In this document: positions 53,837 to 56,815 of the stretch, piece by piece | How the letters are laid out: every line of letters begins with the position of its first letter | Position numbering within the stretch: the stretch's first letter is position 1 | Assembly (NCBI GenBank): GCA_944324915.1 | Contig: CALUYD010000008.1 | Location: 1-64,000 of the forward strand | Direction: 5' to 3' | Length of the DNA: 64,000 bases | Source of the DNA: Candidatus Gastranaerophilales bacterium | GTDB lineage: Bacteria; Cyanobacteriota; Vampirovibrionia; Gastranaerophilales; Gastranaerophilaceae | Notes under the pieces: generated by a model | Database searches by the model: none | What the model was told of the DNA's origin: nothing | Seen by the model: the letters and a program-made list of their open reading frames with translations, nothing else | Translations under genes and position numbers: made by a program

Positions 53837-55162
53837 ATGAATGAAAAAGTTATTGCAATAATCGGACGTCCTAACGTCGGAAAATCCACATTAGTTAACA
53901 GAATAGCAGGTCGCAGATTTTCTATTGTTGATGATAAACCAAATATCACAAGAGATAGAATTTATATTGATGCGACTTGGCAAAATAAAAATTTTGTCTT
54001 AATTGATACAGGCGGTATCGTTGAGGGAAATGATGATGAATTTGTAAAAAATATCAATGCACAAGTTAATTTAGCAATCGAAGAAGCCGATACAATTTTA
54101 TTTGTTGTGGACGCTAAATCAGGCTTAAATCCTTATGATTATGATATTGCAAATAAATTAAGACAAATCGATAAAGAAGTTTTATTGGTTGTAAATAAAG
54201 TTGATTCTAGAGCTCAGGTTGATTTAGCAAGCGAATTTTGGGCATTAGGCTTTGAAAATATGCACCTTTTATCAGCACTCCACGGCGATGGTGGCGTTGG
54301 TGATTTATTGGATGTCATTACAAAAGATATAGAACAAAAAGAAGAAAATAAAGAAGACGATGACATTGAAAAACCTATAAAAATTGCCATTGTAGGAAAA
54401 CCAAACGCAGGCAAAAGCTCAATATTAAATAATCTTTTAAAAAGACAAAGAGCTATTGTAAGCAATGTTTCAGGTACAACAAGAGATTCAATCGATGAAG
54501 AAGTAATCTTTGAAGATAAAGTTTATAGACTTGTTGATACAGCAGGCATTCGCAAAAAATCAAAAGTTGATTATGGTGTTGAAATGTTTGCAGTGGATAG
54601 AGCAATAAGAGCAATAAGAGAGTGCGATGTAGCATTATTAGTTATTGACGCATCAGAAGGCGTATCAGATCAAGATAAAAAAATTGCCTCAATATGCGAA
54701 GAAGCAGGCTGTGGTTTAATTGTTGCTTTCAATAAATGGGATTTAATTAAGAACGTTCAAACACATAAATTTGAAGAAGAATTTGAAAGAGAAGTTCCGT
54801 TTTTAAATTATGCTCATAAAATTTTTATTTCTGCAAAAACAGGTCAAAGGCTTGATTCTATCTTTAAAATGGCTCAAGAAACACAAAAAGAACGTGAAAA
54901 AAGAGTTTCAACAGGCTTATTGAACAAAGTTATTAATGAAGCATATAATCTAAATCCGCCAAGTTCAATCAAAGGCAAGTTATTGAGGATTTATTATTCT
55001 ACTCAAGCAAAAAATAATCCTCCGACTTTTGTTATCTTCATTAATAACAAAGATTTAATTCAAGACCATTATAAAAGATATTTATTGAAAAAATTACGTG
55101 AGAATTTTGGCTTTAAGGGAACGCCGATTGTGGTTTCTTATAGGCAAAAGGGGGATAAATGA
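53837..55162 (+). CDS. der: Ribosome assembly GTPase Der (EngA)
   Basis: 441 aa with two tandem GTPase domains: G1 motifs GRPNVGKSTLVNR and GKPNAGKSSILNN, G3 DTGG and DTAG, G4 NKVD and NKWD. The C-terminal KH-like domain follows. Needed for late 50S assembly. Its stop overlaps the plsY start by 4 nt. Confidence 0.96.
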   Translation: MNEKVIAIIGRPNVGKSTLVNRIAGRRFSIVDDKPNITRDRIYIDATWQNKNFVLIDTGGIVEGNDDEFVKNINAQVNLAIEEADTILFVVDAKSGLNPYDYDIANKLRQIDKEVLLVVNKVDSRAQVDLASEFWALGFENMHLLSALHGDGGVGDLLDVITKDIEQKEENKEDDDIEKPIKIAIVGKPNAGKSSILNNLLKRQRAIVSNVSGTTRDSIDEEVIFEDKVYRLVDTAGIRKKSKVDYGVEMFAVDRAIRAIRECDVALLVIDASEGVSDQDKKIASICEEAGCGLIVAFNKWDLIKNVQTHKFEEEFEREVPFLNYAHKIFISAKTGQRLDSIFKMAQETQKEREKRVSTGLLNKVINEAYNLNPPSSIKGKLLRIYYSTQAKNNPPTFVIFINNKDLIQDHYKRYLLKKLRENFGFKGTPIVVSYRQKGDK

Positions 55163-55755
55163 TTTATTTAATCGGATTAATAACAGCTATTGTTGCATAT
55201 TTAATAGGTTCAATTCCAACAGGATATTTAATTGTAAAAGCAAAAACAAACCAAGACATCAGAACAATAGGCTCAGGTTCAACAGGTGCAACTAATGTTA
55301 AAAGAGTTTTAGGCAAAAAATGGTTCTTTATTGTTATGATATTAGACGCTATTAAAGGCGCACTACCTGTTGTTTTAGCTAAATATTTAACAGATGATAT
55401 TTATGGAATATACGCGGTAATTGCAGCCATTTTTGTTATTATTGGTCATTCAAAACCTATTTTTCTTCAATTTAAAGGCGGAAAATCAGTAGCATCCGGT
55501 GTCGGCACAATTTTAGCGCTTAATCCTTTGGTTGGGCTTTGCATTGCCGTTATTTGGAGCGTTATAACATATATTTCAAAATATGTTTCTTTAGGCTCTA
55601 TTATTGCTCTGATTATTTCACCTTTTTTGATGTATTTTTTCAAAAATCCGATAGGATATATTGTATATTGCGCAATTGCAGCAATTTATATCGTTTATCT
55701 TCATAGGGAAAATATTTCAAGATTATTAAAAGGCACCGAAAACAAAGTGCGCTAG
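55159..55755 (+). CDS. plsY: Glycerol-3-phosphate acyltransferase PlsY
   Basis: 198 aa inner-membrane enzyme using acyl-phosphate to make lysophosphatidic acid. Motifs GSIPTGYLI, GSGSTGATNVKR and GHSKPIFLQFKGGKSVASG are conserved. Its last codons (NKVR, stop) lie inside the first box of the repeat array that follows, so the repeat supplies its stop codon. Confidence 0.94.
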   Translation: MIYLIGLITAIVAYLIGSIPTGYLIVKAKTNQDIRTIGSGSTGATNVKRVLGKKWFFIVMILDAIKGALPVVLAKYLTDDIYGIYAVIAAIFVIIGHSKPIFLQFKGGKSVASGVGTILALNPLVGLCIAVIWSVITYISKYVSLGSIIALIISPFLMYFFKNPIGYIVYCAIAAIYIVYLHRENISRLLKGTENKVR

Positions 55756-55802
55756 CCGTGTGTGAAGCCGTGAAAATGGCAAGGCGTTGAGCCTTGGCAT
55801 TT
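55755..55802 (+). repeat. 48 bp direct repeat, copy 1
   Basis: Matches 56101-56148 at 47 of 48 positions (G versus A in the stem). Begins GCCGTGTGTGAAGCCGTG and contains the GTTGA hairpin of the first module. Confidence 0.85.
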
Positions 55803-56100
55803 TAGGCGTAACCGTTCGATTGCGACGTGGAAATCTTCGATTTCCTCAGGAGCAAAGTGCGATAGCATGCGCAAGCCGGTGTTCCCAAGCGGTTTGCGTT
55901 GAGCAAAGCGCTGGAACATAACGATAGCGACGTTTCAAATTCTTGCCGTAGGCGAATTTGACAGGAGCATGCGATAGCCGGTGCGATAACGAGCTTTCGT
56001 TGAGAAAGCGAGTTAAGCACTACGACGGCGACGTAGGATAATCGAGGCTATTTGGCGACTTAGCCAAATTGAGCCGAGATACCCACAGGAGCATGCGATA

Positions 56101-56148
56101 GCCGTGTGTGAAGCCGTGAAAATGACAAGGCGTTGAGCCTTGGCATTT
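56101..56148 (+). repeat. 48 bp direct repeat, copy 2
   Basis: Second copy of the 55755-55802 segment, in the fourth module; it closes the array. Confidence 0.85.
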
Positions 56149-56151
56149 ATC

Positions 56152-56177
56152 GTCATGCTGAACCTGTTTCAGCATCT
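56152..56177. repeat. Palindromic element, uninterrupted copy
   Basis: GTCATGCTGAACCTGTTTC then AGCATCT. The arms ATGCTGAA and TTCAGCAT pair. It is the first member of a palindrome family that fills the region up to about 56815. Confidence 0.8.
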
Positions 56178-56186
56178 AATACTTGA

Positions 56187-56321
56187 TAAGACCCTGAAAC
56201 AAGTTCAGGGTGACAGGATTAAATTCAGGATGACAGGTTTTATTATGTTTTGTCATGCTGAACTAGCTAGAAAATAGCGCAAGCGTAATTTTCTGTTCTC
56301 TTTGAGCGTTTCAATATCTAT
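56187..56321 (+). repeat. 142 bp-unit repeat, divergent first copy
   Basis: Same order of parts as the tandem copies below: CCTGAAACAAGTTCAGG, GGATGACAGG, then TGTCATGCTGAACTAG with the 42 bp insert at 56267-56308. It ends TTTCAATATCT, where the other copies have TTTCAGCATCT. Confidence 0.8.
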
Positions 56322-56348
56322 TGTCATGCTGAACTAGTTTCAGCATCT
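56322..56348. repeat. Palindromic element, uninterrupted reference copy
   Basis: TGTCATGCTGAACTAG joined directly to TTTCAGCATCT, without the 42 bp insert seen in the neighbouring copies. Confidence 0.85.
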
Positions 56349-56378
56349 TGTTAATTTTATGTATGTACTTTTAACCTT

Positions 56379-56520
56379 TAAGACCCTGAAACAAGTTCAG
56401 GGTGACAGGATTAAATTCAGGATGACAGGTTTTATTATGTTTTGTCATGCTGAACTAGCTAGAAAATAGCGCAAGCGTAATTTTCTGTTCTCTTTGAGCG
56501 TTTCAGCATCTAATACTTGA
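56379..56520 (+). repeat. 142 bp tandem repeat, unit 1
   Basis: Begins TAAGACCCTGAAACAAGTTC and ends CATCTAATACTTGA. Contains the 42 bp insert at 56459-56500. Differs from unit 2 at one position that I can see. Confidence 0.9.
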
Positions 56521-56662
56521 TAAGACCCTGAAACAAGTTCAGGGTGACAGGATTAAATTCAGGATGACAGGTTTTATTATGTTTTGTCATGCTGAACTAG
56601 CTAGAAAATAGCGCAAGCGTAATTTTCTGTTCTCTTTGAGCGTTTCAGCATCCAATACTTGA
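56521..56662 (+). repeat. 142 bp tandem repeat, unit 2
   Basis: Directly follows unit 1; insert at 56601-56642. A further partial unit starts at 56663 and another palindrome at 56732, after which the copies decay (to about 56815). Confidence 0.9.
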
Positions 56663-56815
56663 TAAGACCCTGAAACAAGTTCTGGGTGACAGATTGGTAT
56701 CTTATTGGCTTTATTTGTGCATTTATAATTTTAAGACCCTGAAATAAATTCAGTGTGACAATGTGAGTTCAGGGTGACAAAATTAAGTTCAAGGTGACGG
56801 GCTTCGTTAAAAATG
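56663..56815 (+). repeat. Decayed partial copies of the palindrome family
   Basis: TAAGACCCTGAAACAAGTTC at 56663 and TAAGACCCTGAAATAAATTC at 56732, then GTTCAGGGTGACA and GTTCAAGGTGACG fragments. No reading frame here is credible. Confidence 0.7.

Follow-up and report, generated by a model that had tools for sequence, protein, structure and literature searches.

The array that follows plsY in the window (the whole analysed stretch of 64,000 nucleotides from a Candidatus Gastranaerophilales bacterium) consists of small mobile DNA cassettes of a previously undescribed family, present in gut relatives of cyanobacteria and in some of their phages. Judging from their sequences, these cassettes, here called element E, probably fold into hairpins as messenger RNA. 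Comparison of copies between loci establishes their mobility, structure and position, and an effect on translation would follow from the AGGAG motif in one arm of their second main hairpin.

Organization of the array in the window

The first mini-hairpin of the array contains the stop codon of plsY (TAG, 55753-55755), where the array starts, and the far end of the array abuts an unrelated repeat array (Table 1). All units of E share one plan of 90-170 nt with two main hairpins and one mini-hairpin: a mini-hairpin GCG(N)NAGC is followed by a hairpin H1 with a GNNNA loop (mostly GTTGA or GATGA) and by a hairpin H2 closed by GCGAC/GGAGC, which in the window pair through tandem G-A. At the position of the left 14-nt box, at the end of plsY, relatives read CAAAGTTCGCTAA.

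Table 1. Features of the array and its surroundings, in window coordinates.
Feature	Position	Strand	Support
plsY (glycerol-3-phosphate acyltransferase)	55159-55755	+	Pfam PF02660, E 1.6e-53
14-nt box CAAAGTGCGCTAGC, left copy, overlapping the plsY end; contains mini-hairpin GCGCTAGC (55749-55756)	55743-55756	+	near-identical copy at 55853-55866
Unit 1: mini-hairpin, H1 (GTTGA loop 55786-55790), H2 (GCGAC 55822-55826 / GGAGC 55849-55853)	55749-55853	+	covariance model match, E 2.4e-5; RNA fold
14-nt box, second copy CAAAGTGCGATAGC, between units 1 and 2	55853-55866	+	13/14 identical to 55743-55756
Unit 2: mini-hairpin GCGCAAGC (55869-55876), H1 (GTTGA loop 55898-55902), H2 (55927-55968)	55869-55968	+	covariance model match, E 6e-14
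Unit 3: mini-hairpin GCGATAGC (55971-55978), H1 with tandem GA/GA (GTTGA loop 55999-56003), H2 (56028-56092)	55971-56092	+	covariance model match, E 1.6e-15
Unit 4: 3'-truncated copy of unit 1, stopping inside H1; mini-hairpin GCGATAGC (56095-56102), GTTGA loop 56132-56136	56095-56148	+	96% identical to 55748-55802; partial covariance model match 56117-56149
Adjoining array whose repeats form an unrelated family (GTCATGCTGAAC.../AGTTCAGGGTGACA...), outside element E	56150-56810		142-nt tandem period

The preliminary description had reported a four-unit array with GTTGA loops, and every element that it described is present in the sequence: the GTTGA loop in all four units, the CGAnnGCGACGT box in three copies, one in each of the first three units, with GCGACGT at 55822, 55927 and 56028 (0.72 occurrences would be expected in the window, and 3 are present), and the symmetric GA/GA mismatches in the stem of unit 3. 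AGGAGCA precedes the last three TGCGMTAGC boxes (55858-55866, 55970-55978 and 56094-56102), the first (55748-55756) lacking AGGAG because the sequence there is the end of plsY. Two points need refinement. The fourth unit is a truncated copy of unit 1, to which it is 96% identical over 55 nt, and the boxes are no separate motifs: GCGAC and GGAGC are the two arms of H2, and TGCGMTAGC holds the mini-hairpin GC-GNNA-GC.

The intergenic repeat of the adjoining array (GTCATGCTGAACTAGTTTCAGCATCT / AAGACCCTGAAACAAGTTCAGGGTGACAGG) also lies next to E at three other loci (L004, L019, L026).

Structure, covariation and strand preference

A covariance model was built from 35 units, including units 2 and 3 of the window array, the remainder coming from other loci. 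On the window it matched unit 2 (E 6e-14), unit 3 (E 2e-15) and unit 1, which was outside the model (E 2e-5); these E-values are rough, and the sequences used to build the model match by construction. The window array is far above chance level. RNAalifold, applied to the 35 units, independently returned the same 9-pair structure as the hand-drawn one. Across these units, standard pairing was found in 97.5% of cells, against 74.5% after shuffling and 23-48% after sliding, and 69 cells were changed on both sides of a pair, against 23 in the control. In H1, pairs 2-5 and 9 from the loop were standard in 45-48 of 50 non-redundant windows, a few of them not true units, compared with 20-30 after shuffling.

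The base of H2 reads GCGAC/GGAGC, CCGCC/GGCGG, CTGGC/GCCAG, GCGGC/GCCGC or CCGGC/GCCGG, the mini-hairpin reads GCGAAGC (28), GCGTAAGC (24), GCGCAAGC (20), GCGTGAGC (12) or one of several rarer forms, and GATGA, GTCGA and GTTCA are found beside GTTGA as H1 loops. GNNNA loops, GC-GNNA-GC and GGAGC are kept across genera. The stems thus covary between copies, and the earlier argument that varying arms with fixed loops and boxes imply selection on structure holds against both the shuffle and the slide controls: the arms vary and the loops and boxes persist because the structure is under selection.

The mismatches are biased between the strands, with 33 G·U against 8 A·C and 39 G·A against 7 C·T on the + strand, which also has the lower (more stable) folding energy in 86 of 90 units. 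This bias points to selection on one single strand, either RNA or single-stranded DNA. The preliminary description had proposed a structured RNA or a single-stranded DNA substrate of a transposase. Selection on a single strand is compatible with either. A role as RNA is favoured by the strand bias and, as described below, by codirectional orientation and the tie to stop codons; target repeats and empty sites show that E is mobile as well. A coding reading of the array was rejected, since the open reading frames are short and differ between copies. No Rfam family accounts for the array: only one tRNA scored above the gathering threshold over the whole window, and nothing credible appeared at a relaxed E-value. 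The features of BOX, REP and attC were never found complete.

Distribution

In the window's genome, BLAST found 18 places at E <= 1e-3 and the covariance model 10 copies of E. The possibility, raised beforehand, that the boxes occur nowhere else did not hold, for they recur in the genome and in relatives. BLAST matches were obtained in most genomes of the genus; by the covariance model, E is present in 27 of the 28 genus genomes. Of 289 genomes from the class, 74 have it, and all of these except one belong to the same family, across which its copy number is low. These genomes are mostly metagenome assemblies, and arrays frequently lie at contig ends. A 24-mer from one H1, compared with named genomes, matched Candidatus Gastranaerophilales and uncultured bacteria only. 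We found no literature on repeats of this kind in Gastranaerophilales.

Mobility and growth of arrays

The plsY gene is present in 27 of 28 genus genomes, and its inspectable orthologous 3' ends lack the array, reading AAAGTTCGCTAA or similar. As the second repeat array adjoins, plsY offers no clean two-sided empty site, and a triosephosphate-isomerase-like (tpiA-like) gene, a LuxR-type regulator gene (both names assigned by eye) and phage sites were used instead. No E is present at the 3' end of the tpiA-like gene in the sister genome G008; G000 has two insertions there, and three copies of the target CTTTCGCAGTTTGAATTGT (repeat 19-23 nt). The 3' end of the regulator gene is empty in G003, G007, G009 and G040 and filled in G000, G008, G012 and G020, with H1/H2 modules that differ among these four. 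In the genes for tRNA-Arg, tRNA-Leu and tmRNA, only the first nucleotides of the gene precede E, an intact gene lies downstream, and direct repeats of 12-42 nt are present. Of 118 element sites, 19 have direct repeats of at least 12 nt, as do 4 of 266 control positions; roughly one-third of these 19 represent duplicated units within an array, which leaves about a dozen target repeats. Sites of E are species-specific and mostly empty in relatives. Compared at sequence level, target repeats and empty sites show that E, besides being structured, is mobile.

Within an array the mini-hairpin is the same in 29 of 40 cases, against 18% between arrays, and mini-hairpin and spacer are common to the units even where H1 differs, which suggests that the target being repeated is the flank with the mini-hairpin, and that H1-H2 is what inserts. 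Flank and mini-hairpin are repeated between units, terminal units are 3'-truncated, and one truncated unit is joined to the tpiA target at a CTTTCG microhomology. Because repeat length varies and 3' ends are truncated, copying with template switching seems likelier than a transposase of fixed stagger.

Other repeats were seen at or near E. A second tRNA-Arg insertion (L149:770-840) lies between the same 37-nt target repeats and holds two short hairpins that are not clearly E, perhaps a decayed copy. In two species, E arrays at loci other than groEL contain the final bases of that gene (TGGGAATGATGTAA) together with the sequence after them (L004:1620-1660, L042), and a third repeat (CACTTTTCTTCTTTTTTCTCTCAAACGGCGAAATGAAAAAGAAGAAAAGTG) is interrupted by E at L045, L054 and L137. 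A second module type, K, consists of GAGCGAAGCGAAACGTAGTGCGACTGCACACGTTGAGCAAAGCGAG followed by GGTGTGYGAAGC...GTTGA...CCGTACC, with GC steps and tandem G-A (L003:1105-1400, L014, L021, L022, L050), and is often joined to E.

No mobilising enzyme was found among Y1 transposases, reverse transcriptases and serine recombinases. Y1_Tnp (PF01797) had no match in the window's genome, where positive controls were detected, and matched in 1 of 28 genus genomes, and a Y1/HUH transposase was thus rejected as the partner; a reverse transcriptase (PF00078) was likewise absent from the window's genome and present in 12 of 28 genus genomes. A serine recombinase gene adjoins E in phage L227 and in L211. E follows it in only 2 of 29 related chromosomal loci, and among the matches listed no genus genome has one, so this gene is another insertion site and no dedicated partner. 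At L246, L248 and L227:1303-1445 a serine recombinase gene runs in frame into E, which encodes its C-terminal tail; a tyrosine integrase gene comes next in L246 and L248, and a phage tail gene in L227.

Position at stop codons and in phage operons

Among 113 unit starts, 28 had an open reading frame of at least 65 codons ending at most 60 nt upstream, of which five in unrelated viral contigs and one inside an array were removed by hand. Stop codons lie between -6 and +3 nt from the GCG of the unit in 20 of the 22 curated sites, a count that takes in the minority of sites with a callable reading frame within 60 nt and depends on the analyst's filters. In the -6 cases the stop codon is within the mini-hairpin (GCG-TAA-GCC, GCG-TGA-GCC), and plsY in the window is a further case of this kind. 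In a separate count, the upstream reading frame was codirectional with E in 47 cases and antisense in 21. The insertions in tRNA and tmRNA genes have no stop codon, and translation cannot therefore account for every target.

In other genera, E occurs as single copies between phage genes: between tail gene X and gpD (L207-L209) and between the terminase large subunit gene and a head gene (L203). In L227, E is present at three junctions. At the X-gpD junction, L226/L228 have no E and read TAATG, and L207-L209 carry it; at the U-X junction, the genes overlap by ATGA in L207/L230/L231, where E is missing, and L224/L227 carry it, the stop codon there now lying within the mini-hairpin, followed by CAGGAGCAAAAAATG. 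Filled junctions read stop, E, CAGGAGCAAA, ATG, with E exactly between stop and start codons and AGGAG ahead of the next ATG. Comparison of empty and filled junctions shows that E can insert between genes that are probably translationally coupled, supplying a Shine-Dalgarno sequence. No clear target duplication was found at the phage insertions. The phage copies were retrieved through the tail gene and one H2 pattern, and three direct scans of viral contigs, run with patterns that had different types of H1 or H2, returned nothing. In some lineages the Shine-Dalgarno is gone (CAGGCGG, CAGCCAG), so it is not the universal function of E, and most host arrays have no start codon directly after them.

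Proposed mechanism and alternatives

Our confidence is evenly balanced on the reading we prefer, that E is a mobile, modular intercistronic or 3'-UTR cassette that works at the RNA level where translation terminates and re-initiates. E starts where a codirectional gene has its stop codon, or in a tRNA or tmRNA gene of which an intact version is regenerated downstream. It would work in the mRNA, where the ribosome would terminate at or within the mini-hairpin, H1 and H2 would form a structured spacer, and the Shine-Dalgarno would sit in the weak, GA-mismatched base of H2, so that re-initiation would depend on the opening of H2. Insertion at the stop codon would be tolerated because the reading frame and the ribosome-binding site are kept. 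Host arrays, that of the window included, would mostly be selfish or neutral accumulations in 3' UTRs, possibly serving as terminators or mRNA ends. More tentatively, E might represent a class of mobile elements with the stop/start junction as its niche, moving between phages and hosts by a possibly RNA-templated copying that duplicates 12-42 nt of the target; bounded by a stop codon on one side and by a Shine-Dalgarno on the other, it could then enter phage and host operons without breaking them.

The mobility, codirectional insertion, arrays and truncations would also be expected of a purely selfish DNA repeat of the REP/BIME or MITE type, the + strand hairpins of which would be the single-stranded DNA substrate of an HUH or other trans-acting transposase, and the stop-codon position of which would come from the target sequence (T|AA) and from selection against gene damage. 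The phage insertions without clear target duplication fit such a repeat, as do the strand-specific hairpins with G-A pairs and GNA/GNNA mini-loops, since d(GCGAAGC)-type hairpins with these mini-loops are very stable in DNA too. We nevertheless consider it rather unlikely: Y1_Tnp is missing from the window's genome and nearly so from the genus, terminal inverted repeats are absent, direct repeats of up to 42 nt elsewhere misfit HUH transposition, and the exact placement at native stop codons is left without explanation.

The strongly conserved structure in spite of varying sequence, the placement in 3' UTRs, and some H1 stems flanked by A-runs and T-runs, resembling bidirectional terminators, would agree with an RNA at gene 3' ends that serves the host by terminating transcription, stabilising the mRNA or offering a processing site to an endonuclease such as RNase III, and that recombination spreads and selection retains. 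That explanation is improbable given the species-specific sites, the truncated and nested copies, the insertions in tRNA and tmRNA genes and the copies among co-transcribed phage tail genes, where termination would be harmful. Least probable to us is that E has no function, its hairpin-prone sequence being copied when replication switches template at microhomologies, with arm-templated correction keeping the stems complementary. The variable repeat length, the CTTTCG junction and the modules exchanged at one site speak for it, but such correction should erase mismatches, yet the tandem G-A and the strand bias (G-U over A-C, G-A over C-T) persist, and GNNNA, GC-GNNA-GC and GGAGC are conserved across genera.

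Comparison with known systems

In behaviour, the closest kin of E are BOX, REP/BIME and ESAS. The streptococcal repeat BOX (boxA-boxB-boxC) of Streptococcus pneumoniae has terminal inverted repeats, is modular and size-variable, forms nested clusters, duplicates its target and in 36 cases encodes the stop codon of the upstream gene (PMC3049150). E shares the modularity, variable size, nested clusters, target duplications and stop codons at gene ends. It differs in that each unit is a complete hairpin set with freely varying stems, the target repeats measure 12-42 nt, where BOX and MITEs have a duplication of fixed length, and it is found in phage operons with a Shine-Dalgarno; the start GCG(N)NAGCCGG and the end CAGGAGCA of E are not complementary, whereas BOX and MITEs carry terminal inverted repeats.

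REP/BIME repeats, which go with RAYT transposases, are short hairpins outside genes that form mosaic arrays and frequently lie close to the 3' ends of genes (PMC2817692, PMC3733652), the REP itself being a 20-40 nt palindrome with an unpaired GTAG or CGTC tag (PMC3733652). Hairpins with mismatches, mosaic arrays and a frequent location near gene 3' ends are common to both, but E is no single GTAG/CGTC-tagged palindrome, its units beginning with GCG(N)NAGCC and ending with CAGGAGCA, and the RAYT/TnpA_REP (Y1_Tnp) gene is absent from the window's genome.

In cluster K mycobacteriophages, SAS is a conserved 13-bp sequence, GGGATAGGAGCCC, with AGGAG beside start codons, half of the sites having imperfect inverted repeats upstream (ESAS); it is confined to non-structural genes of these phages, and arrays in hosts are unreported (PMC3203893). 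At phage start codons E resembles ESAS, with AGGAG at ribosome-binding distance and an upstream inverted repeat in L203, L207-L209, L224 and L227. Unlike SAS/ESAS, it occurs in structural operons and has its start at the stop codon of the gene upstream, and the 13-bp SAS sequence was not found in E, which ends in CAGGAGCA with H2 upstream. Since sequence and host differ, E would work like SAS/ESAS without being a member.

The PeSL of T4-type phages (Arbiol et al. 2010) are reportedly mobile regulatory cassettes made of a promoter and a stem-loop. They would resemble E in being small cassettes with a stem-loop that are shuffled among the genes of phages; the window array has no promoter that could be found within it or beside it. 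An integron attC site is bounded at both ends by paired RYYYAAC and GTTRRRY boxes. This assignment was rejected for E, where GTTGAGC is confined to the H1 loop and never forms an outer box, and where this loop also reads GATGA, GTCGA or GTTCA.

Small hairpin repeats are common in bacteria, and their function and means of spread are seldom clear. For E, the covariation, the strand bias, the orthologous empty sites, the phage copies and the stop-codon position make both the mover and the translational effect directly testable. Overall, repeats that break the assemblies of uncultured gut bacteria can be one defined element, common to their phages too.
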